64,000 nucleotides of DNA from [Zimmermannella] faecalis ATCC 13722 (GTDB lineage: Bacteria > Actinomycetota > Actinomycetes > Actinomycetales > Microbacteriaceae): the NCBI RefSeq assembly GCF_000381765.1, contig NZ_KB907080.1, positions 1-64,000 on the forward strand, in the 5' to 3' direction. Below are positions 3,663 to 57,000 of this stretch, piece after piece; positions within the stretch are counted from its first letter, which is position 1; every line of letters starts with the position of its first letter. A program made the translations under genes and the position numbers. Below the pieces are notes generated by a model. The model saw nothing but the letters and a program-made list of their open reading frames with translations, made no database searches and was not told the DNA's origin.

Positions 3663-4862
3663 CTACAGCTCGGGCTGGTCGCGGCGGGCAGCGATCTTCG
3701 AGGGCAGCGAGTGCAGCTCGATGAAGCCGCGCGCGGCGTCCTGGTTGAAGGTGTTGCCGGTGTCGTACGTCGCGAGCGAGTAGTCGTAGAGCGATTCGTC
3801 GGAGCGGCGACCCGTCACGACGGCACGGCCCTGGTGGAGGGTCATGCGCACCTCGCCCGTGACCTTCTCCTGCGTGTGATCGATGAACGTGTCGAGCGCG
3901 CGCTTGAGGCCGCCGAACCAGAGGCCGTCGTACACGAGGTTGCCCCACTCGATCTCAACGCCCCGCTTGTAGCGGTGCACGTCGCGCTCGAGCGCGAGGT
4001 CTTCGAGGTGCGTGTGCGCCTCGATGAGCGCGATCGCGCCGGGAGCCTCGTAGATCTCACGCGACTTGATGCCAACGAGACGGTCTTCGACCATGTCGAG
4101 GCGGCCAACGCCGTGCTGGCCGGCGAGCTCGTTCATGCGCTCGACAATCTGGAGCATGCTGAGGCGCTCACCGTTGATCGAGACGGGCGTGCCCGACTCG
4201 AACGCGAGCGTCACCTCGGTGGCCTCGCGCGGGGTCGTCGGGTCCTGCGTGTACTCGTAGAGGTCTTCGATCGGGCCGTTCCACGGGTCCTCAAGGAACC
4301 CGGTCTCGACCGCGCGGCCCCAGACGTTCTGGTCGACCGAGTAGGGCGACGCCTTCGACTGGCGAATCGGGAGGTTGTGCTCGCCGGCGTACTCGATCGC
4401 GACGTCGCGCGTGAGCGACAGGTCGCGGATCGGCGCGATCGACGTGAGCTCGGGCGCGACGGCCGCGACTGCGGCCTCAAAGCGCACCTGGTCGTTGCCC
4501 ATACCGGTGCAGCCGTGCGCGATCGAGTTCGCGCCGAGCTCGCGAGCGGTGCGCGCGAGGTGGCGGGCGATGAGTGGACGCGAGAGTGCTGACACGAGCG
4601 GGTAGCGACGCTGGTACATCGCGTTCGCCTTGAGGGCAGGCACGAGGTAGTCGTCGGCGAACTCGTCGCGGGCGTCGATGACGACGGCCTCGACGGCGCC
4701 GCAGTCAAGCGCACGCTGGCGAATCTGCTCGAGGTCCTCGCCCGCCTGCCCGACGTCGATCGCCAGCGCGATGACCTCTCGGCCGGTGCGCTCCTTGATC
4801 CACGGGATGGCGACGGAGGTGTCAAGGCCTCCCGAGTACGCGAGCACAATACGCTCAGTCAT
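3663..4862 (-). CDS. argG: Argininosuccinate synthase
   Basis: Condenses citrulline and aspartate with ATP hydrolysis to argininosuccinate. The 399-residue product begins [16 protein letters not shown], with the PP-loop ATP motif SGGLDTS at 10-16. The ATG at 4862 is chosen because AAGGAG lies 5 nt upstream; the open frame continues 37 codons further upstream without homology. The gene is separated from argF by a hairpin (4901-4928). A TAGACT -10-like hexamer at 4900-4895 suggests that argGH can be transcribed from its own promoter. argR, often found between argF and argG in Actinobacteria, is not here. Confidence 0.97.
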
Positions 4863-4900
4863 GTTGCTCCTTCTGGATGGGGTGGTCTGGCATAAGTCTA

Positions 4901-4928
4901 GGCGCCGGGCAGTGATCTGCCCGGCGCC
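4901..4928 (-). terminator. Hairpin between argF and argG
   Basis: A perfect 11-bp stem, GGCGCCGGGCA / TGCCCGGCGCC (4901-4911 with 4918-4928), with a 6-nt loop lies 10 nt beyond the argF stop. It lacks a long T tract and could act as a terminator or attenuator that splits argCJBF from argGH. Confidence 0.65.
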
Positions 4929-4938
4929 AAATCGGCAG

Positions 4939-5883
4939 CTAGGCCGGAAGCTCGACGCCGCGCGCCTGCGCAAGCAGCCACACGAGCAGCGCCTTCTGGG
5001 CGTGGAGGCGGTTCTCGGCCTCGTCCCAGATCGCCGACTGCGGGCCGTCGATCACGTCGGCGTCGACCTCGTAGCCGCGATCGGCAGGGAGGCAGTGGAG
5101 GAAGATCGCGTTGTCCTTCGCGTGACCCATGAGCTCCGCGGTCACGCGGTACGACTCGAATGCGGCAACGCGCTCGGCACGCTCCTCCTCAAGCCCCATC
5201 GACACCCAGGTGTCGGTGACGACGACGTCGGCGCCCGCGACGAGCGCCGCCGCGTCGGTGCCGACCTCGACCGAACCGCCCTGCTCGGCCGCGATCTCGC
5301 GCGCCCGGGCGACGACGTCCTCGCGGGGCAGGTAGCCCTCGGGCGACGCGACCGCGACGTGCATGCCGGCGAGCGCGCAGGCAAGCAGGTACGAGTGGCC
5401 CATGTTGCTCGCGCCGTCGCCGACAAACACGAGCTTTTGCCCGGCCGTCGCGCCGCGGTGCTCACGAATCGTGAGCAGGTCGGCGAGCAGCTGGCACGGG
5501 TGGAAATCGTCACTCAGCGCGTTCACGATCGGCACTCGCGCGCCCTCAGCCATCTCTTCCAGGCCCGACTGCGCGTACGTGCGCCACACGATCGCCGAGA
5601 CCATGCGCTCAAGCACGCGCGCCGTATCCGACGGGGTCTCCTTGCCACCGAGCTGGCTCGACGCCGTCGTGAAGATGAGCGGGCTGCCGCCGAGCTCCGA
5701 AACCCCGACGTGGAACGACACACGCGTGCGGGTCGAGCTCTTGTCGAAGATCACGGCCACCGACTGGGGCCCCTCGAGCGGGCGCGCGAGGAATCGGTCA
5801 CGCTTGAGCTTCGCCGCGAGGTCGAGAATCGTCGACTGCTCGGCGGCGGTGACATCGTCGTCGCGAAGGAAGTGGCGGATCAT
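4939..5883 (-). CDS. argF: Ornithine carbamoyltransferase
   Basis: Transfers the carbamoyl group to ornithine to form citrulline. The 314-residue product has the carbamoyl-phosphate motif STRTR (50-54), DFHPCQ in the ornithine domain and HCLPADRG near the C-terminus, all typical of anabolic OTCases. The start [10 protein letters not shown] at 5883 is preceded by AAAGG at a 6-nt spacing; longer in-frame starts have no support. It lies directly downstream of argB (28-nt gap). argD, which commonly sits between argB and argF in related genomes, is missing. Confidence 0.97.
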
Positions 5884-5911: not shown

Positions 5912-6808
5912 CTACGAGGAGACCTCGGTGCCGAACCCGTCGGTGGTGAAGATTTCGAGGAGCGTCGAGTGAGCGACGCGGCCATCAATGATCGTCGCAC
6001 GGGAGACCCCGCCGTCGACCGCCTCGAGGCAGGCCTGCGCCTTCGGGATCATGCCCGACTCGAGCGACGGCAGCAGTTCGCGCAGCTCGTCGCTCGTGAT
6101 CGTCGACGTGAACGACGAACGGTCGGGCCAGTTGCGGTACAGCCCCTCAACGTCGGTGAGCATCACGAGCTTGCGCGCGCCGAGCGCTACCGCGAGCGCG
6201 GCGGCGGCGCGGTCAGCGTTGATGTTCAGCGCCTTGCGGGGCTGGTCGACGTCGCTCGCAATTGTCGACACGACCGGGATGCGCCCCGCGGCAATGTCGG
6301 CCGCGACAACCTGCGGGTTCACGGCGACGATCTCGCCGACGTGGCCGAGGTCGACCGGGTTACCGGCCGCGTCGGTCGTCTTGCGGCGCGCCTGGAACAG
6401 CCCCGCATCTTCCCCCGACGTGCCGGTCGCGACCGGCGCGACGTCGTTGATCGCGGACACGAGCTCGCGGGCCACCTGTCCACCGAGCACCATGCGCACG
6501 ACCTCCATCGCCTCACCGGAGGTGTACCGGTACCCGGCGCGGAACTCCGACTCGATACCGAGGCGGTCGAGCATCCGAGAGATGTGCGGGCCGCCGCCGT
6601 GCACGACGATGGGCTTCACGCCGGCGTAGCGCAGGAACGCGATGTCCTGCGCAAACGCCTCGATGAGCTCGGGGTCGATCATCGCGTTGCCGCCGAACTT
6701 CACGACGACGATCTCGCCGCGATACTGCTGCATCCACGGGAGCGCCTCGATGAGCGTCTCGACCTTCGCGGTCGACGCGGCGAGCCACGGGAGGGTGCTG
6801 GAAGCCAT
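5912..6808 (-). CDS. argB: Acetylglutamate kinase
   Basis: Phosphorylates N-acetylglutamate, the usual arginine-feedback step. The 298-residue product has the amino-acid-kinase glycine-rich motif VKFGGNAM (36-43) and the GGGPHI substrate segment. The start ATG 6808 ([11 protein letters not shown]) is supported by AAGG four bases upstream; the 59-codon upstream extension is not. It sits between argJ and argF in the arginine operon. The N-terminal stretch before the kinase fold could form the kinking helix of arginine-sensitive hexameric NAGKs, but that is inference. Confidence 0.96.
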
Positions 6809-7986: not shown

Positions 7987-9041
7987 GGGGCAACTCCGTT
8001 CACGGGCAGGGCGGTCGCCTCGTCGAGGCCGAGCGCGAGATTGGCAGACTGGATCGCGGCGCCGGCGGTGCCCTTGCCGAGGTTGTCGATTGCGCTGATC
8101 GCAACGAGCCGGCCGGCGCGCTCGTCGATGCCGACGGCGAGCTGCGTGCGATTCGAACCGAGCACATCGCCCGTGCGCGGGTAGCGGCCGTCGGTGAGGT
8201 ACTCGATGAAGCCCTCGTCGCCGTAGGCCTCGCGGTACACGTCGTCGATGCGGGACTGGTCAACACCCTCGGCGAGCGCGCCCGAGACCGTCGCGAGAAT
8301 CCCGCGGGCCGTCGGCACGAGCACGGGCGTGAACGCGAGGCGCACGTCGAGGCCGGATGCGCGGCGGAGGTTCTGCCGGATCTCGGGGTTGTGGCGGTGG
8401 CCACCAAAGGCGTTGTACGGGGCGATGTTGCCCATGAGTTCGCTGCCGAGCATGCCCACCGACGCCTTCTTGCCAGCGCCGGATGGGCCGACCGCGAGCA
8501 CCGCGGCGAGGTCGATCGCCCCAACGAGGCCAGCGCGCAGCGCCGGGGCGAGCGCGAGCGTCACGGCCGTGACGTTGCAGCCCGGCACCGCGATGCGCGA
8601 GGCGCCCGGCAGGTTGGCGCGCTGTTTGCTGCCATCGTCGAGTACCAACTCGGGCATGCCGTAGGTCCAGGTGCCCGCGAACTCGCCCGGGTAGTAGTCG
8701 ACCCAGTCTTGTTCCCGCTCGAGGCGGTGGTCGGCGCCCGCGTCAACGACGAGCGAGGTGTCGTCGCCGAGCTCAGACGAAATCGCCGCGGACTTGCCGT
8801 GCGGCAGCGCCAGGAACACGACGTCGTGGCCGCGCAGGTGCTCGGCGTCGGTCGGCTGCAGCTCGAGGTCGCCGTACGAGAAGAGGTGCGGGTGAACCGC
8901 ACGCAACGACTGACCCGCCTGCTGGTGCGCCGTGACCGTGCGCACGTCGAACTCGGGGTGATTCGCGAGCAGCCGGAGGAGCTCGCCTCCGCCATACCCA
9001 CTGGCCCCAGCGACCGCTACCGAATACGTCATAGTCGTCAT
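7983..9041 (-). CDS. argC: N-acetyl-gamma-glutamyl-phosphate reductase
   Basis: NADPH-dependent reduction of acetylglutamyl phosphate to the semialdehyde, third step of arginine synthesis. The 352-residue product has the nucleotide-binding start VAVAGASGYGGGE (8-20) and the catalytic cysteine in VPGCNVTA (Cys155). It is the first gene of the cluster and diverges from sufS across a 32-nt gap. Two ATGs compete, at 9041 and 9032. A GTAGG sequence abuts the first, while AGG lies 9 nt before the second, so the start is uncertain by three codons. I found no convincing ArgR operator in the short divergent region. Confidence 0.95.
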   Translation of the reverse strand: MTTMTYSVAVAGASGYGGGELLRLLANHPEFDVRTVTAHQQAGQSLRAVHPHLFSYGDLELQPTDAEHLRGHDVVFLALPHGKSAAISSELGDDTSLVVDAGADHRLEREQDWVDYYPGEFAGTWTYGMPELVLDDGSKQRANLPGASRIAVPGCNVTAVTLALAPALRAGLVGAIDLAAVLAVGPSGAGKKASVGMLGSELMGNIAPYNAFGGHRHNPEIRQNLRRASGLDVRLAFTPVLVPTARGILATVSGALAEGVDQSRIDDVYREAYGDEGFIEYLTDGRYPRTGDVLGSNRTQLAVGIDERAGRLVAISAIDNLGKGTAGAAIQSANLALGLDEATALPVNGVAP

Positions 9042-9073
9042 CCTACGCGGGGCGGCGCCTAGGCTAGGGAGCG

Positions 9074-10360
9074 ATGACTTCCTCGGTAATTAGCGACGCG
9101 CGCGCCCGAGAACTGCGCCGCGACTTCCCCATTCTTCACGAGCAGGTGCACGGCGACCCGCTCGTCTATCTCGACTTCGGGGCGACCGCGCAGCGCTCGA
9201 GCGCCGTGCTCGAGGCGGAGCGCGAGTTCCTCGAGCACCGCAACGCCGCCGTCCACCGCGGCGCCCACGAGCTCGCGGCACTCTCGACGAGCGACTACGA
9301 GGAGTCCCGCGACATCGTCGCGCGCTTCGTCGGCGCCGACGCCGACGAGATCGCCTGGCAGGCCGGCGCGACCGATGCGCTCAACACGGTTGCCCTCGGC
9401 ATCGCGGCGGCGTCACGCGGACGGGGCGGCGACGACTCGGTGCCGCTACGGCTCGGCCCCGGCGACGAGATCGTCGTAACCGAGGCCGAACACCACGCGA
9501 ACCTCGTGCCCTGGCAGGAGCTCGCGCTCGCGACGGGCGCGACGCTGCGCTGGATTCCCGCGAACGAGCGGGGCACCTGGTCGATCGATGACGCCCGCGC
9601 CGTCGTCGGCCCCGCGACCCGGGTGCTCGCGTTCGCGCACGTCTCGAACGTCACGGGCATGATCGCCCCGGTCGCCGAGCTCGTCGAGCTCGCCGCTTCG
9701 GTCGGAGCGATCACCGTGCTCGACGCGTGCCAGTCGGTGCCGCACCGCCCCGTCGACTTGCACGAGCTCGGCGTCGACTTCGCCGCGTTCTCGAGCCACA
9801 AGATGACCGGCCCGAACGGACTCGGCGTACTCTACGGCCGCCGCGAGCGCCTCGCGCAGCTCCCGCCCGCCCGCACGGGCGGCTCGATGATCGAGGTCGT
9901 CACGATGGAGGCGACCACCTTCATGGATCCGCCGACCCGCTTCGAGGCCGGCACGCAGGCCGTGCCGCAGGTCGTCGGCCTCGCCGCCGCGTGCCGCTAC
10001 CTCGACCGCGTCGGCATGGCGTCGATTCGCGACCACGAGGAAGCGCTGGGCGCGCTCATGGTCGAACGCCTCGGCGCGCTCGAGGGCGTGCGGGTGCTCG
10101 GCGACGACGCGTCGGTGGCCCGCTCGGGCCTCGCCGCCTTCACGGTCGACGGCGTGCACTCGCACGACGTGTCGCAGTTCCTCGACGCGCGCGGCATCGC
10201 CGTGCGCGGCGGACACCACTGCGCCCAGCCGCTGCACCGCCGGCTCGGACTCACCGCATCGACCCGCGCCTCGACCTACCTCACGACTACGACCGACGAG
10301 ATCGACGCGCTGATCGACGCCCTCGGCGACGTACGCGCCTACTTCGGGGCCAATCGATGA
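9074..10360 (+). CDS. sufS: Cysteine desulfurase, SufS type
   Basis: PLP enzyme that removes sulfur from cysteine for Fe-S cluster assembly. The 428-residue class V aminotransferase has the PLP lysine in SSHKMTGP (Lys243) and the persulfide cysteine in GGHHCAQPL (Cys383), matching group II SufS enzymes. The ATG at 9074 may be leaderless: TAGGCT (9060-9065) ends 8 nt upstream. Its stop overlaps the sufU start by 4 nt. No SufB, SufC or SufD gene adjoins, so the scaffold components must lie elsewhere. Confidence 0.95.
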   Translation: MTSSVISDARARELRRDFPILHEQVHGDPLVYLDFGATAQRSSAVLEAEREFLEHRNAAVHRGAHELAALSTSDYEESRDIVARFVGADADEIAWQAGATDALNTVALGIAAASRGRGGDDSVPLRLGPGDEIVVTEAEHHANLVPWQELALATGATLRWIPANERGTWSIDDARAVVGPATRVLAFAHVSNVTGMIAPVAELVELAASVGAITVLDACQSVPHRPVDLHELGVDFAAFSSHKMTGPNGLGVLYGRRERLAQLPPARTGGSMIEVVTMEATTFMDPPTRFEAGTQAVPQVVGLAAACRYLDRVGMASIRDHEEALGALMVERLGALEGVRVLGDDASVARSGLAAFTVDGVHSHDVSQFLDARGIAVRGGHHCAQPLHRRLGLTASTRASTYLTTTTDEIDALIDALGDVRAYFGANR

Positions 10361-51970: not shown

Positions 51971-52069
51971 CGATATCGGGCGTGTCGCGACGAAGATTCG
52001 AACTTGCCAGGCGCGCATCCACCTACGCTGGACTCAGCGACGACCCGCCGACCACCAGGGAGGAGCACC

Positions 52070-52828
52070 ATGGCACCCGCGCCAATCGGACACATGCCGG
52101 CCTACGGCGCCGAGCACCTCTCGGTACTCGCAATCACCGTCGTGCTCGCCGTCGCACTCCCCCTGCTCGCAGACCGACAACGCCGCGCACCGCGGCTCGA
52201 CCGCGCACTGACCGCCTCCGGCTGGGCACTCCTCGTCGTCGCCGTGTTCTGGCTCGCCTGGGGATTCCTCCCGGCCAACTGGAACCTCGCCGAATCCCTC
52301 CCATTTCATTTCTCGGATGGCCTGCGGATCTTCGCCGCGGTTGCGCTCATTACCCGCGCGCCGTGGGCCGTGCTGATTGCCTACTACTGGGGCTTCACCC
52401 TCAACCTCATGTCGCTCCTCACGCCCGACCTCAACTACTTCGTCGCCCCGGCGCTCGAGTTCACGCTCTATTGGGTGCTCCACGTCGCGGTACTCCTCGT
52501 TCCGCTCGTACTCATGGTCGGCGTCGGCCTGCGGCCGACCTGGCGCGGATACGCACTCACCCTGACACTCACGTGCGGCTGGGCTGCGCTCGCGATGCTC
52601 GTGAATTCCCTCACGGGCGCGAATTACGGTTATCTCGCGCACGCGCCGCGCGGCGCGTCGCTGCTCGATGCCCTCGGCCCGTGGCCCACCTACCTCCTGT
52701 GGGAGCTCGCACTCGTCGCCGTCGTGTGGGCACTCATGACCTGGCCGTTCACGACGCGCCGGTCACTGGCCGCGACCGAGCCGGTCGGGTCAGGTCGATG
52801 GCTGCGGGTCGTGTCAGCCTCACGCTGA
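52070..52828 (+). CDS. TIGR02206/YwaF family membrane protein
   Basis: Integral membrane protein of 252 residues with about seven segments. Conserved-looking features are GAEHLSVLAIT at the start, LPFHFSDGLRIFAA and the NSLTGANYGYL motif, which fit the YwaF/TIGR02206 family of unknown function. ATG 52070 has GGGAGGAG 5 nt upstream; an upstream GTG/ATG (52004) is less likely. It diverges from recA and may share the SOS operator, which would be new for this family. A non-coding gap of about 55 nt separates it from the next promoter. Confidence 0.8.
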   Translation: MAPAPIGHMPAYGAEHLSVLAITVVLAVALPLLADRQRRAPRLDRALTASGWALLVVAVFWLAWGFLPANWNLAESLPFHFSDGLRIFAAVALITRAPWAVLIAYYWGFTLNLMSLLTPDLNYFVAPALEFTLYWVLHVAVLLVPLVLMVGVGLRPTWRGYALTLTLTCGWAALAMLVNSLTGANYGYLAHAPRGASLLDALGPWPTYLLWELALVAVVWALMTWPFTTRRSLAATEPVGSGRWLRVVSASR

Positions 52829-52881
52829 GACGAGGATTCGAGTTCGAACGACCGGGGTCGACGGCAGCACCGCCACCAGAT

Positions 52882-52909
52882 TTGAGAGTTAGGCTAACCT
52901 AACTAAATT
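52882..52909 (+). promoter_or_regulatory. Promoter with DtxR/IdeR-like iron box
   Basis: TTGAGA (52882-52887), 16 nt, TAAATT (52904-52909) forms a promoter. Its spacer is filled by AGTTAGG-CTAA-CCTAACT (52887-52904), a perfect 7-bp-arm palindrome containing the conserved right part of the IdeR/DtxR consensus (TTAGGCTAACCTAA). Iron-loaded repressor bound here would block RNA polymerase, so the operon downstream should be iron-repressed. Confidence 0.75.
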
Positions 52910-52989
52910 GCCTGGATCTCGACCGTCAGGAGCGCGATTGTCTCGTTCGTCTGCCCACCCCTCTCGCATCGTCACGGGAGGCTGAGCGA

Positions 52990-53610
52990 ATGCAACGCCC
53001 CTTCGCGGGCTTCACGACCCGCAGCCTCCTCGCCTGCGTCGTGCTCGGCGCGTTCACCGCCGCGTTCGTACACCTCTCACGCGTGTTCGGGGTGCTCCTG
53101 TGGTCAACGGCCCCGTGGCTCGGTGCCCCGGCGCCATTTATCCCGTGGTTCCTCACGATCATCCTGGCGGGCATCCTCATCCCCCGCTTCGGCTCGGCCC
53201 TCATCACGTCGCTCATCGGCGCGGTGGTCGGCATCGGGTCGATGGCGTTCGTCGCGGGCATCGTCGCCGAGATCGTCTTCACCGTCGCACGCGCACAGCA
53301 GCGCCGACGCGGCACGGAGTCCGCGCCAGCCGGCGACCGACGCTGGCTCGTCTGGAGCATCGTTGCCGGCATCGCGATCGGACTCGTGAGCTACGGCATG
53401 ATGTTCACCGTCGCTGAGTTCCGCCTACTGTCGTCCGACCTCATGCTGCTCGCACTCGGCATCCGGCTCGTCGCGGGCGCCGCCTGGGGCGTTATCGCCT
53501 ACCTCCTTGCCAAGGCACTCCTTCGGGCCGGCCTGAATCTCGAGGGAACCCGGCGGCGACGCCCCGCCACCGCGAGCAGCACATCCGACTTCCCCGGGGA
53601 GCCGATCTGA
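52990..53610 (+). CDS. ECF transporter substrate-specific component, YkoE-like
   Basis: Membrane S component that should bind the transported nutrient. The 206-residue protein has about five hydrophobic segments and the general look of the YkoE/HMP-thiamine-precursor family (LLACVVLGAFTAAFVHLSRVFG, FLTIILAGILIPRFGSALITSLIGAVVG). ATG 52990 has GGGAGG 8 nt upstream. The 80-nt leader is too short for a TPP riboswitch and instead follows an iron box. The real ligand may therefore be an iron chelate, haem-related compound or other metal-linked nutrient; this is inference. Its stop overlaps the next gene (CTGA). Confidence 0.82.
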   Translation: MQRPFAGFTTRSLLACVVLGAFTAAFVHLSRVFGVLLWSTAPWLGAPAPFIPWFLTIILAGILIPRFGSALITSLIGAVVGIGSMAFVAGIVAEIVFTVARAQQRRRGTESAPAGDRRWLVWSIVAGIAIGLVSYGMMFTVAEFRLLSSDLMLLALGIRLVAGAAWGVIAYLLAKALLRAGLNLEGTRRRRPATASSTSDFPGEPI

Positions 53611-55046
53611 CCGCCGCGGTCGCCGTCCGGGGGCTCCGGGTTAGCTTCGCCGGGCGGCCCGCAGTGCTCGATGGCCTCAACCTCAGCTTCGAGCGCGGCA
53701 CGTACACGCTGATCGCCGGGCCGACCGGCTCCGGCAAGAGCACGCTCGCGCTCGCAATACTCGGCGCGCTCGAAGACGTCGCCCGCGCCGACGTGGAGGG
53801 CGAGGTGCTCGTTGACGGCACCGTCATGACCGAGGCCGACGCCCTCACGCGGGCCCGCCTCGTGAGCGCGGTGTGGCAGCGTCCCGAGGCGCAGCTGTTC
53901 CGGTCGACGATACTCGATGAGGTGCGATCGGCCCTCGACTACCGACTCGTGCCGGCGGCCGAGGCGGATGCGCGGGCTCGCGAACAGCTGCGGCTCGTCG
54001 GGCTCCACGCGATCGACGAGGAGCGGCACCCGGCGACGCTCTCGGGCGGGGAACGGCAGCGGCTCGCACTCGCGGCCGCACTCCTGCAAGAAGCCCCGGT
54101 GCTCGTGCTCGACGAGGCGACGAGCGCCCTCGACCGCGCCGCGACCGACCTGTTCGTGGCGGCGCTCGAACGCGCCCGCGCGACCCGCGACCTCACCGTC
54201 ATCGCGATTGACCATCGCCCCGACGCGCACCTCGAGGCGGCCGACCGCCTCGTCGTGCTCGAGGCCGGGCGGGTCGCGCTCGACGGGACGCCCGCGAGCG
54301 TCCTCGCCGAGCCACACGCGGGCGAGCTCGGGCTGCGCCGCCCCGGCGAACGCTCGCGCACGCTGCCGACGCTCGCCGACGCCCGAACCGAGGATCCCGC
54401 GCACGCGACGCTCCGGCTCGACCGGGTCGGCGTGCGGCTCGGCGACTCGGCGATTCTCGACGACCTCACCTGTGCCCTGCCGACGGGCGCTGTCGCCCTC
54501 GTCACCGGAGACAACGGGGCGGGCAAGTCCACGTTCCTGCGACTGCTCGCCGACGAGCTTCGCCCGGCGGCGGGCCGGGTCGCACCGCGTGGACGAGCGC
54601 GAACCCGCGCCGGTATCGGCGCCGCACCGCAGCACGCCGCCGACCTGTTCTTCACCGAGCGCGTCATCGACGAGGTCGGCACGGTGCTCGCTCGCGGGCG
54701 ACGCCCCTCCGGCGAGCTGCGCGGCCTCGCTCGCGGCCACCTCGAGCGCGCTGGCCTCGCGGCCGAGGCCGACACGCATCCGCTTCGGCTCTCGGGCGGG
54801 CAGCGGCAGCGGCTCGCGGTGTTGCTCGCGACCGTCGCCGCGCCCGGTACCCCGCCAGCGCTCGTGCTGCTCGACGAGCCGACGAGCGCCCAGGATCGCG
54901 CGGGCGCCGACCTCGTGTGTGCGCTCATCCAAGCGAACGCTTCAGAGCGCGTCACCATCATCGCGACGCACGAACCCGCCGCGTTCGCATCGTTCGCGAC
55001 GCACCTGCTCGCGTTCGATCGCATCCCCGCCGAGGTCGACGCATGA
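53607..55046 (+). CDS. ECF transporter ATPase with two fused ABC domains, CTG start
   Basis: Energy-coupling ATPase of 479 residues carrying both A domains in one chain, as in YkoD. The first Walker A is GPTGSGKST (38-46) with LSGGERQRLALA and VLVLDEATSALD. The second is GDNGAGKST (about 308) with LSGGQRQRLAVL and [11 protein letters not shown]. Homology (TAAVAVRGLRVSFAGRPAVL) extends upstream of the first ATG/GTG codon (GTG 53664). The only codon that fits is CTG 53607, which overlaps the previous stop as CTGA and has GGGGAG about 5 nt upstream. I therefore propose a CUG start. It overlaps the T component by ATGA. Confidence 0.88.
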   Translation: MTAAVAVRGLRVSFAGRPAVLDGLNLSFERGTYTLIAGPTGSGKSTLALAILGALEDVARADVEGEVLVDGTVMTEADALTRARLVSAVWQRPEAQLFRSTILDEVRSALDYRLVPAAEADARAREQLRLVGLHAIDEERHPATLSGGERQRLALAAALLQEAPVLVLDEATSALDRAATDLFVAALERARATRDLTVIAIDHRPDAHLEAADRLVVLEAGRVALDGTPASVLAEPHAGELGLRRPGERSRTLPTLADARTEDPAHATLRLDRVGVRLGDSAILDDLTCALPTGAVALVTGDNGAGKSTFLRLLADELRPAAGRVAPRGRARTRAGIGAAPQHAADLFFTERVIDEVGTVLARGRRPSGELRGLARGHLERAGLAAEADTHPLRLSGGQRQRLAVLLATVAAPGTPPALVLLDEPTSAQDRAGADLVCALIQANASERVTIIATHEPAAFASFATHLLAFDRIPAEVDA

Positions 55047-55780
55047 CCCCGCGGTGGCGGCCGCACCCCTTCGCGGTCGCGTTCTTGCCGGTGCCAGCAA
55101 TCGTCGCGGTGCTCGTCGCGCCCGGCGTCACGTTCGGGCTCATCTGCGCCGCGGCGTCGGTGGTCGCGATCCTGGCGAAGAGCTGGCGGCTCGCGCTTGT
55201 CGCCGCGGCCACGGCCGTGTTGGGCACCGCGATCCTGTGGTTCGGGTTCGCCATGTCGCTTCCCGCCGAGCCGTTCGGCACGCCGAGTGCGACCGTCGAC
55301 TGGCTCCCGCTGCGGCCGACGGTCGATCAGGCGCTCGCGGCGCTCAGGGGTGCCCTGCGGGTCGTCGTGGTCATGCTGTTATTCGTGGCGGGCTCGGCAC
55401 ACGTTCGCGGCACCGTCTTCACCGATTCGCTGATCCGCTATGTGCGCGTGCCGTATCGCGTCGCCGACGTGATCGCGCTCGGCGCGCAGTTCGCCGTCGG
55501 TATTCGCCGCGACGTTGCCGCCGCCCGAGCCATCGCCCGGCTGCGGGCACGCGGCCGAGGGATGGGAGCTGCGCGAATCGGCGCGAGGCTGACCGTGCCT
55601 GTGCTCATGGCGTCGTTCCGCCGCGCCGACGAACTCAGCGTCGCGATGGAAGCCCGCGGGTTCGCGGCGCTGCCTGACCGGACGCTCCATTACGCGGTCG
55701 CACCGAGGGCGCTTGACGCGGTACTGCTCGCGCTCGGCTGGTGCGTCACGGTCGTAGTCGCCATGGCGGTGCACGGATGA
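55043..55780 (+). CDS. ECF transporter transmembrane component (EcfT-like)
   Basis: Membrane scaffold that couples the ATPase to the S component, 245 residues. It has membrane segments near 10-60, 105-120 and at the C-terminus, plus the two coupling-helix motifs with Ala-Arg-Gly: RAIARLRARGRGM and VAMEARGFAAL. ATG 55043 overlaps the ATPase stop (ATGA), and its own stop overlaps the hydrolase start the same way, so the four genes form one tightly coupled operon. Confidence 0.9.
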   Translation: MTPRWRPHPFAVAFLPVPAIVAVLVAPGVTFGLICAAASVVAILAKSWRLALVAAATAVLGTAILWFGFAMSLPAEPFGTPSATVDWLPLRPTVDQALAALRGALRVVVVMLLFVAGSAHVRGTVFTDSLIRYVRVPYRVADVIALGAQFAVGIRRDVAAARAIARLRARGRGMGAARIGARLTVPVLMASFRRADELSVAMEARGFAALPDRTLHYAVAPRALDAVLLALGWCVTVVVAMAVHG

Positions 55781-56703
55781 GCGCGGCGAGATCGACAGTC
55801 GCCACGCTCGACGAGCTCGTCGGCGCGCGTACCGACATCGACCACAACGGCCGTCGCCTCAGTGTCCGCTCGCTCGGTGGCGCCACCGGTGGTGCCCCCG
55901 GCGCGGGTAGCAGCGTGCTCTGGCTCGCGGGAATGGGGATGTCGGCGAACTATCTCGCGCCACTCCACCAACGCATCGCGCGCGAGACTCGCTCGGTACT
56001 GTTCGACCGCGCGGGACTCGGGCGGAGCGATCCCGACACGCGCCCGCGCACCCTCGAACGCGCGGCGGATGAGGTCATCGCCGTCCTCGAGGCACTCGAA
56101 CTCGACGACGCCGTGCTCGTCGCGCACAGCTGGGGTGGGCCGATTGCCCGGGTCGCGGCGGCGCGGGTGCCGCATCGAGTGCGCGCGCTTGTGTTACTCG
56201 ACCCGAGCGACGAGCACACCCGCGTGGGCGCGCTACTCGCGCATCGTCGGCGCGGCGCGGCCCTCGCCCGCGCGACGCGGCTTGCCGGGATGCTCGGTCA
56301 GCTTCGGCTGCTGTGTGCCCGCGGGTACCACCCCGCCGTGCTCGCCGAACTGCGGGCCGTCGACCTCTCCGCGCGGGCGCAGCGCGCCTACCTCGCCGAG
56401 CTCGCGGAGTACGAGCGCGAGCTGGATGCGCTGATCGCCGCCCCGCTCCCGCTCGGCGACGTGCCGATCACGCTCGTTTCGGGGCAGTTACTCCCCCGTT
56501 CGGGCCGCGTTCGGGCCCGGCGCGAGGCGATGGTCCGGGCCCACGAGGCGAGCGCCCGCGACACATCCGGTGTCCGACTCATCCGCGCCGAGTCGTCGGG
56601 ACACCTGCTCCCGATCACCGATCCCGACCTCGTCATCGCCGAGGTCGTGCGCGCGCTCCGATCCGACCGCGCGGGCAGCGAGGCCGACGAGCTCAGGCCG
56701 TGA
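55777..56703 (+). CDS. Alpha/beta hydrolase in the ECF operon
   Basis: Soluble alpha/beta-hydrolase fold enzyme of 308 residues. The nucleophile elbow is AHSWGG (Ser118), the oxyanion region is LWLAGMG, and the catalytic His is in SSGHLLP (His276). There is no signal peptide, so it acts in the cytoplasm, after uptake. Being the fourth gene of an iron-boxed ECF operon, it could release iron or cofactor from an imported ester-type chelator or process the imported vitamin, but the sequence does not decide this. It converges with the DUF3046 gene, 19 nt away. Confidence 0.85.
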   Translation: MSAARSTVATLDELVGARTDIDHNGRRLSVRSLGGATGGAPGAGSSVLWLAGMGMSANYLAPLHQRIARETRSVLFDRAGLGRSDPDTRPRTLERAADEVIAVLEALELDDAVLVAHSWGGPIARVAAARVPHRVRALVLLDPSDEHTRVGALLAHRRRGAALARATRLAGMLGQLRLLCARGYHPAVLAELRAVDLSARAQRAYLAELAEYERELDALIAAPLPLGDVPITLVSGQLLPRSGRVRARREAMVRAHEASARDTSGVRLIRAESSGHLLPITDPDLVIAEVVRALRSDRAGSEADELRP

Positions 56704-56722
56704 CCCCTACCGTTTCAACCCC

Positions 56723-56947
56723 CTACCGCTTCGGGTCGAGCAGCCCGACGCCGTACCAGCGCTCGCGCGGCACATCCATCGCCGAGCACACCGCGAGCCA
56801 CACCGAGCGGGCATCCTCGCCGTCGTCGAGCGCCTGGCGCGCCGTGCGGTCGCCGAGGGCGCCGATGACGACATCGCGCACGACCGACGTGCCATAGGCC
56901 TCGCCAAACTCGTCGCGCACTGCCCGCTGGAACTCGCTCAATCGCAT
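56723..56947 (-). CDS. DUF3046 family protein
   Basis: The 74-residue protein MRLSEFQRAVRDEFGEAYGTSVVRDVVIGALGDRTARQALDDGED... matches the DUF3046 pattern: an N-terminal (M)R-L-x-x-F motif, a central Leu/Gly-rich helix and WYGVGLLDPKR near the end. The function is unknown. In many Actinobacteria it is encoded close to recA and ClgR, as here. ATG 56947 has no strong Shine-Dalgarno. It is a single gene between two terminating structures. Confidence 0.85.
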   Translation of the reverse strand: MRLSEFQRAVRDEFGEAYGTSVVRDVVIGALGDRTARQALDDGEDARSVWLAVCSAMDVPRERWYGVGLLDPKR

Positions 56948-56965
56948 GTCGCACAGCCTAACGGC

Positions 56966-57000
56966 CTCGGCCCCGACCGGAGAATCCGATCGGGGCCGAG
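56966..57000 (-). terminator. Hairpin after clgR
   Basis: CTCGGCCCCGACCGG (56966-56980) pairs with CCGATCGGGGCCGAG (56986-57000) with one mismatch and a 5-nt loop, about 45 nt beyond the clgR stop on the minus strand. It probably ends the clgR transcript before the DUF3046 gene. Confidence 0.7.

Follow-up and report, generated by a model that had tools for sequence, protein, structure and literature searches.

An iron-boxed energy-coupling factor operon of [Zimmermannella] faecalis, a likely importer of ferric siderophores

We analysed a 64-kb stretch (hereafter the window) on contig 7 of the 2.85-Mb genome of [Zimmermannella] faecalis ATCC 13722, in which a four-gene operon for an energy-coupling factor (ECF) transporter occupies positions 52990–56703. 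We judge it fairly probable that this operon encodes a self-contained group I ECF importer for iron starvation, with a ferric siderophore as its most likely cargo and with cytosolic iron release by a siderophore-interacting protein (SIP) in relatives, or here by a hydrolase. A role in iron acquisition is well supported, and a siderophore is likely as the cargo. The parts of the operon are of known kinds, and we class the whole as a variant of the ECF transporter.

The four genes are all on the forward strand, and neighbours overlap by 4 bp (CTGA, ATGA and ATGA in order). The first (52990–53610, 206 amino acids) encodes the S component, the substrate-binding membrane subunit, which is a distant relative of YkoE by profile comparison. 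It is followed by a fused double ECF ATPase (EcfA-EcfA', 53607–55046, 479 amino acids) that carries two ABC_tran domains in a single protein (Pfam, E 6.5e-45), with two Walker A, two signature and two Walker B motifs. The third protein, an EcfT-like transmembrane scaffold or T component (55043–55780, 245 amino acids), scores 22.7 bits against CbiQ/EcfT, 2.3 bits short of the Pfam cut-off of 25, and has two ARG motifs in its C-terminal half. The last gene (55777–56703) encodes an alpha/beta hydrolase of 308 amino acids with an Abhydrolase_1 domain (Pfam, E 1.6e-16). Dedicated S, T and ATPase genes, which define group I, are thus found in one operon, the T component scoring below its cut-off and the S component resting on a distant profile match. 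Judged from sequence, the operon has the build of a group I ECF importer, and by threshold, residues and regulation it is not a YkoE system.

The operon is preceded by a sigma-70-type promoter (52882–52909, forward strand; -35 TTGAGA, 16-nt spacer, -10 TAAATT), the only promoter-like site in 52780–57000, where 0.1 would be expected from shuffles. An IdeR/DtxR-like iron box, the palindrome AGTTAGGCTAACCTAACT (52887–52904, no strand assigned), lies inside the promoter spacer. Boxes were scored by matches to a 19-mer DtxR consensus, with a threshold of 13 or 14. The window box scores 15/19, and the best other site in the window reaches 12. Boxes are found upstream of all five orthologous operons (scores 15, 16, 14, 13 and 15), and 43 of 3000 random 300-nt stretches, drawn from a pool including the boxed loci, score at least 13. 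The operon therefore shows what marks an IdeR/DtxR regulon member, namely a consensus box in the promoter that is kept upstream of orthologs, weakly so in P. soli. An Rfam scan detected no family, TPP (thiamine pyrophosphate) or other riboswitch, near the operon; the five TPP riboswitches of the genome lie elsewhere. An earlier note on this DNA had described four overlapping genes behind a single promoter with a palindrome between -35 and -10, and had proposed iron control in place of a riboswitch; the gene coordinates, overlaps and domain matches bear out the first claim, the promoter is as described, and the box in five of five operons, where its absence would have spoken against the proposal, supports iron control.

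Pattern searches of the genome place this box among iron genes. The 14-mer TTAGGNWANCCTAA occurs exactly at four places, the window box being one of them, and nine sites, the window included, match it with at most one mismatch. Six of the eight other near-exact sites adjoin genes for a Peripla_BP_2 protein with an ATP-binding cassette (ABC) ATPase, an sdh cytochrome b, a second Peripla_BP_2 protein, an HtaA-domain protein, a SIP and a FecCD protein; the remaining two adjoin genes for an alcohol dehydrogenase and an MmgE/PrpD protein. Near-exact boxes before siderophore-type, sdh and HtaA genes point to an iron regulator. This bears on the idea that the cargo is a compound of some other metal (cobalt, corrinoid or manganese) and the regulator a DtxR-family repressor responding to a metal other than iron. 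That idea can draw on the name ABC_cobalt for PF09819, the Pfam family of YkoE, on the resemblance of the T component to CbiQ, and on the three DtxR-family proteins encoded in the genome, one of which could be MntR. However, it is opposed both by these neighbours of the box and by the SIP partners found in relatives, and we regard it as highly improbable.

Profile and DNA scans identified four more operons whose S proteins are related to that of the window: two from Gulosibacter sp. 10 (49 and 44% identity), one from Pseudoclavibacter soli (62%) and one from genome G198 (35%). One of the Gulosibacter copies is a mobile element with the order SIP-S-A-T (A, ATPase), in which the SIP gene comes first, and a divergent SIP gene stands beside the P. 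soli operon and beside the G198 operon. The SIPs of the mobile cheese element (L034), P. soli (L030) and G198 (L067) were confirmed by Pfam. The P. soli S protein is the nearest relative of the window S protein on both trees; since it lies beside a SIP and the window S beside a hydrolase, closely related transporters adjoin different candidate iron-release enzymes. Copies of this 3.7-kb mobile element in Gulosibacter sp. 10, Agrococcus casei, Frigoribacterium sp. JB110, Actinomycetales JB111, genome G168 and on pCASE2, a mobilizable plasmid of Corynebacterium casei, agree over 3,701 bases with at most one mismatch, the plasmid copy matching chromosomal ones.

Several features of these operons are worth recording. 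In A. casei (L034), SIP-S-A-T lies between two near-identical transposase-like genes (3670–4977 and 8934–10241), ISL3-like by eye, and on pCASE2 (L107) it is flanked by a TetR-type gene and an IS1380 transposase. Both ATPases and T are fused in one 856-amino-acid frame in G198 (L067, 5539–8109), whose divergent SIP has a His-rich N-terminal stretch. The window ATPase has no ATG, GTG or TTG start near the S stop, and the CTG at 53607 is its likely start. The CTGA overlap with the S stop occurs at 53607–53610 in the window, at 1828–1831 in L031 and at 6573–6576 in L030, and ATGA takes its place in the cheese element and G198. These reading frames suggest that a conserved CTG start with translational coupling of the fused ATPase is likely.

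Beyond the close orthologs, iron boxes mark a wider set of loci. A phylum-wide search with the narrow S profile returned the window and one weak match, so the wider class was assembled from weak order-level matches and a second profile. It comprises 23 boxed YkoE-class loci in two families (the window, L031, L034, L030, L067, L075, L078, L159–L164, L195–L198, L202 and the orphan-S loci L069, L070, L073, L076 and L077), with the cheese element counted once as L034 (further copies L029, L032, L033, L035, L080 and L107). These loci are not independent: five are in genus g106, three, with SIP, in g114, and six in one other family. A SIP accompanies eight of the 23, falling into about six lineages, the hydrolase accompanies two, and 13 have neither.

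The order-level search gave 11 matches apart from the window, with wide flanks for six and about 3.3 kb for the other five, in which no box of 14 and no SIP was found. The six belong to another family and are A-T-S operons, each with box sites of at least 13 at one place only in 10–13.5 kb; among them, G507 has the order A-T-S-SIP. With these S proteins as queries, a class-wide search yielded 44 matches, of which the 40 loci fetched cover 43 and the last is L001 of the present genome. Five of the 40 (L195–L198 and L202) have a box of at least 14, and four of these five hold a SIP between T and S. Pfam confirmed the SIP in L159, L195, L196 and L198, and BLAST alone identified that of L197. In all 13 wider boxed operons the box coincides with the start of ATPase homology or is no more than about 130 nt away from it; homology was used for the placement, as the longest open frames of several A-T-S operons run past the box. 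Boxes of 14–16 were also found in a set meant as a negative control, at PF09819-type S genes of another genus of the same family (five genomes) and at ECF operons of a third genus (L075, L078 and five orphan S genes in all); other such genes are unboxed. The orphan PF09819-type S genes (L069, L070, L073, L076 and L077, genus g106) carry a strong box near -55, and in the ~5 kb around them no ECF module was found; they may use a module encoded elsewhere. In g114, a second S-type gene lies directly before the iron box and the ATPase gene (L195 4552–5097, L196 4837–5379, L202 4502–5044), and two S components may serve one ECF module there.

The earlier note had left the cargo at an iron-linked chelator, haem-like or corrin-like compound. 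The iron link is upheld by the boxes of the five orthologous operons, by those of related ECF loci from further genera and from a second family, and by SIP genes recurring beside ECF genes. Because the recurrent partner is a siderophore-interacting protein, the chelator side is strengthened and narrowed towards a ferric siderophore or similar chelate, with haem now the main alternative.

Thiamine-type loci behave differently. PF09819 matches occur in 159 of the 189 genomes of the family (150 at E 1e-29 or better), and Rfam placed a TPP riboswitch over threshold in 15 of 20 high-scoring PF09819 loci. None of 30 thiamine-type loci of the family has a box over 12 upstream, or a SIP or hydrolase in its short flanks (~1.5 kb). 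In the class-wide set, where 29 of the 40 loci were labelled TPP-type by BLAST, 27 were scanned in Rfam and some are cut short by contig ends, a TPP riboswitch was found in 19 of 20 thiamine-type loci (among them L209, assigned to this type by its riboswitch) versus none of seven others, and no box of 14 or SIP occurs in the 29. Rfam scans found no TPP riboswitch in any of the 23 boxed loci. The SIP counts, 8/23 in boxed loci versus 0/30 and 0/29 in TPP-type loci, thus link boxed loci to siderophores for part of the class, the window itself holding just the hydrolase. In a tree of 36 S proteins, the TPP group and the five close orthologs each form a clade (support 100/100 and 100/99, respectively); L074, a very long branch, was dropped from the later tree and the alignments.

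The earlier description of the S protein as YkoE-like stands as distant homology. Against a profile of eight YkoE-type proteins, five of which were checked as PF09819, hhalign gave 99.0%, and the S protein is distantly homologous over its length. A search of the PDB returned a weak match to YkoE (5edl, E 0.047); a better-scoring match (E 0.0078) is a designed protein aligned through short repeats. In Pfam and NCBIfam the S protein hit chance-level families only, with no PF09819 match at E<=1, and two of the four orthologs reach sub-threshold PF09819 scores of at most 15.1 bits (cut-off 25.2). According to the text available of the YkoE structure paper, thiamine is held by Trp49, Glu77, Gln95, Asp131 and Tyr46, with Trp49 stacking on the pyrimidine (PMC5037267). 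Our alignment took in 15 of the 23 boxed S proteins. Gln95 and Asp131 occur in all 13 TPP-type proteins and in none of these 15. Trp49 is kept in 13/13 and 14/15, respectively, and Glu77 is not diagnostic (E in four and S in nine of the TPP group). This alignment is distant and its single columns are to be read with care, the Gln95 column being gapped for the window's group in both alignments. Filing the S protein as YkoE was rejected, as it misses the Pfam threshold and two contact residues; filing it by structure was dropped, as its mostly helical AlphaFold model is too poor. The genome's other PF09819 gene (L001 1474–2049, G000:C2) has no box in the 300 nt upstream and no TPP riboswitch in 3.3 kb.

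These data also speak to whether the operon imports a thiamine precursor or other vitamin and was made iron-responsive, one conceivable benefit being that iron-sulfur enzymes of biosynthesis are spared. The distant homology to YkoE and the retained pyrimidine-stacking Trp49 would fit such a role. However, the two lost contacts, the riboswitches absent from all boxed loci and present in most thiamine-type YkoE loci, and the location of the genome's own TPP riboswitches elsewhere argue against it, and the SIP association would be left unexplained; we consider it very unlikely.

Another reading is an iron-controlled haem or porphyrin importer. LhaSTA of Staphylococcus lugdunensis is an ECF iron importer that takes haem (available text of PMC7299338), use of haem is likely in the present organism, given the iron-boxed HtaA-domain protein of its genome, and His28 is invariant in four orthologs compared; the hydrolase would then act on a bound ester or be a passenger. 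Nevertheless, the recurrent partner is a siderophore-interacting reductase and His28 is not kept in L067, which leaves a haem cargo unlikely.

For the hydrolase, an AHSWGG nucleophile elbow, an Asp in LLDPSDEH and a His in SGH can be recognised by eye and suggest a Ser/Asp/His catalytic assignment. Its structural model (predicted local distance difference test, pLDDT, 60.6) matches many alpha/beta hydrolases, including the ring-cleaving AqdC, haloalkane dehalogenases and esterases; deriving the function from the fold was given up, as no single substrate is picked out. A survey of its co-occurrence with the iron box, proposed in the earlier note, found the gene in only 2 of 23 boxed loci, the window (downstream) and Gulosibacter copy 1 (divergent, 48% identical), which differ in arrangement. 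Among adjacent open reading frames of nine relatives in other genomes, listed by eye and without a family search of the neighbours, no ECF or SIP gene was seen. These counts would fit the view that the importer is an iron-siderophore system as proposed and the hydrolase a passenger with an unrelated substrate. The retention of the gene at this identity in two different arrangements, however, suggests selection for the pairing, and we hold the passenger view to be a real but lesser possibility. Next to its orphan S gene, L073 has a weak alpha/beta hydrolase match (E 6e-6, 30% over 101 residues) that was not counted as the hydrolase, and one relative of the hydrolase (L099) lies near genes resembling, by eye, a DtxR/MntR-type regulator and an Nramp metal transporter.

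We propose the following model for the siderophore importer. When iron is plentiful, an IdeR/DtxR-type repressor would sit on the box in the promoter spacer and block transcription. When iron is low, the S component would be made and bind an iron chelate, most likely a ferric siderophore and perhaps one made by neighbours, and EcfT and the double ATPase would drive its entry. In relatives carrying SIP, this flavin reductase would free the iron in the cytosol. In the window the hydrolase may open the imported cargo, probably by cutting an ester or amide of the carrier, and SIP genes elsewhere in the genome could also act. The sequences themselves show the gene content, the overlaps, the box with its conservation, the SIP association in relatives and the loss of thiamine-contact residues; in this model we infer the repressor binding, the cargo, the direction of transport and the hydrolase substrate.

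A number of observations weigh against the siderophore reading. The window operon is without SIP, and tblastn found none in the 64 kb either; SIP and hydrolase are both absent from the 13 partnerless boxed loci, and other ferric compounds may be substrates of SIP-family flavoproteins. A siderophore pocket has no structural support, the model of the S protein being poor (pLDDT 49). Non-thiamine YkoE-class loci without a strong box exist (L001, L068, L071, L072, L074, L199, L200, L201 and L203), and boxed S proteins are not one clade: the label needs four changes on the tree, which implies repeated gain of the box or its loss in some lineages. P. soli, the closest S ortholog, has interrupted ATPase and T frames and the weakest box of the five (13/19). 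At two mismatches the genome gives 53 strand matches to the box versus 43 for a backwards control, not clearly above it, so only near-exact sites carry weight. With these points included, we lean slightly towards an unrecognised Micrococcales class of ferric-siderophore ECF importers that are related to YkoE, have IdeR boxes for TPP riboswitches, lack thiamine-contact residues, use a SIP or hydrolase as release partner, and have spread among cheese actinobacteria on mobile DNA.

Vitamins and nickel/cobalt are known cargoes of ECF importers, and a chloroplast ECF-type module reportedly handles metals. ECF import of haem has been described (available text of PMC7299338). We found no report of ECF import of siderophores in the literature searched, which covered few subscription journals. 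YkoE did not appear together with DtxR, IdeR or iron terms among the matches listed, and in the literature searched 'siderophore-interacting protein' and 'energy-coupling factor' (hyphenated spelling only) co-occur only in an Alteromonas transcriptome study.

Compared with known systems, the operon shares with the thiamine-precursor transporter YkoEDC (PF09819; 5edl) the group I layout, a distantly homologous S component and the Trp49 position. In contrast to YkoEDC, its S protein falls under the PF09819 cut-off and lacks Gln95 and Asp131, an iron box replaces the TPP riboswitch, and there is an extra hydrolase gene, or a SIP in some relatives. LhaSTA, compared here by description and not by sequence, is likewise an ECF importer under iron-repressor control for iron supply; unlike the window operon, it uses Fur rather than IdeR/DtxR, one ATPase gene, a haem cargo and the isd locus, and no SIP or hydrolase is named in its description as available (PMC7299338). 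The iron box, the SIP partner in relatives and iron chelate import as the likely task recall the FecCD/binding-protein ABC siderophore importers with SIP, whereas the window system is ECF-type: it relies on a membrane S component, and its operon lacks a gene for a binding protein. RUSTI islands, in the text available, are similar as iron-uptake genes with a siderophore reductase that spread horizontally among cheese actinobacteria, but they encode two binding proteins, two permeases and one ATPase (PMC5526665). RUSTI was rejected as the carrier of the cheese copies, as another transporter type is described and its main text speaks neither of ECF nor of energy coupling (PMC5526665).

If the siderophore reading is true, ECF transporters would gain a class of cargo, Gram-positive cells would have a route for siderophore uptake that needs no binding protein, and S genes like that on pCASE2, annotated 'hypothetical protein', would have a role. 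The alternation of SIP and hydrolase opens iron release in actinobacteria to direct testing, and the importer is tied to iron competition in a food microbiome by its mobile cheese copies.

FecCD/binding-protein-type and SIP genes are present elsewhere in this genome. At L016 829–3012 (G000:C4), a SIP domain is fused to an ABC membrane and ATPase domain, in a protein that resembles mycobacterial IrtA. As for the genomic site of the operon, a TMEM164/TIGR02206 membrane acyltransferase-like gene (52004–52828) lies between recA and the operon. A TMEM164-like gene is at the same site in two of ten congeners, a set that includes one truncated locus. In the two nearest congeners, it is followed within about 30 bases by DUF3046, and the window operon sits between these two genes. 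S, A, T and hydrolase queries had no match at the corresponding site in 10/10 congeners, although the sequence of L128 stops too soon for a judgement. This makes the operon accessory, having been gained here or lost in others.

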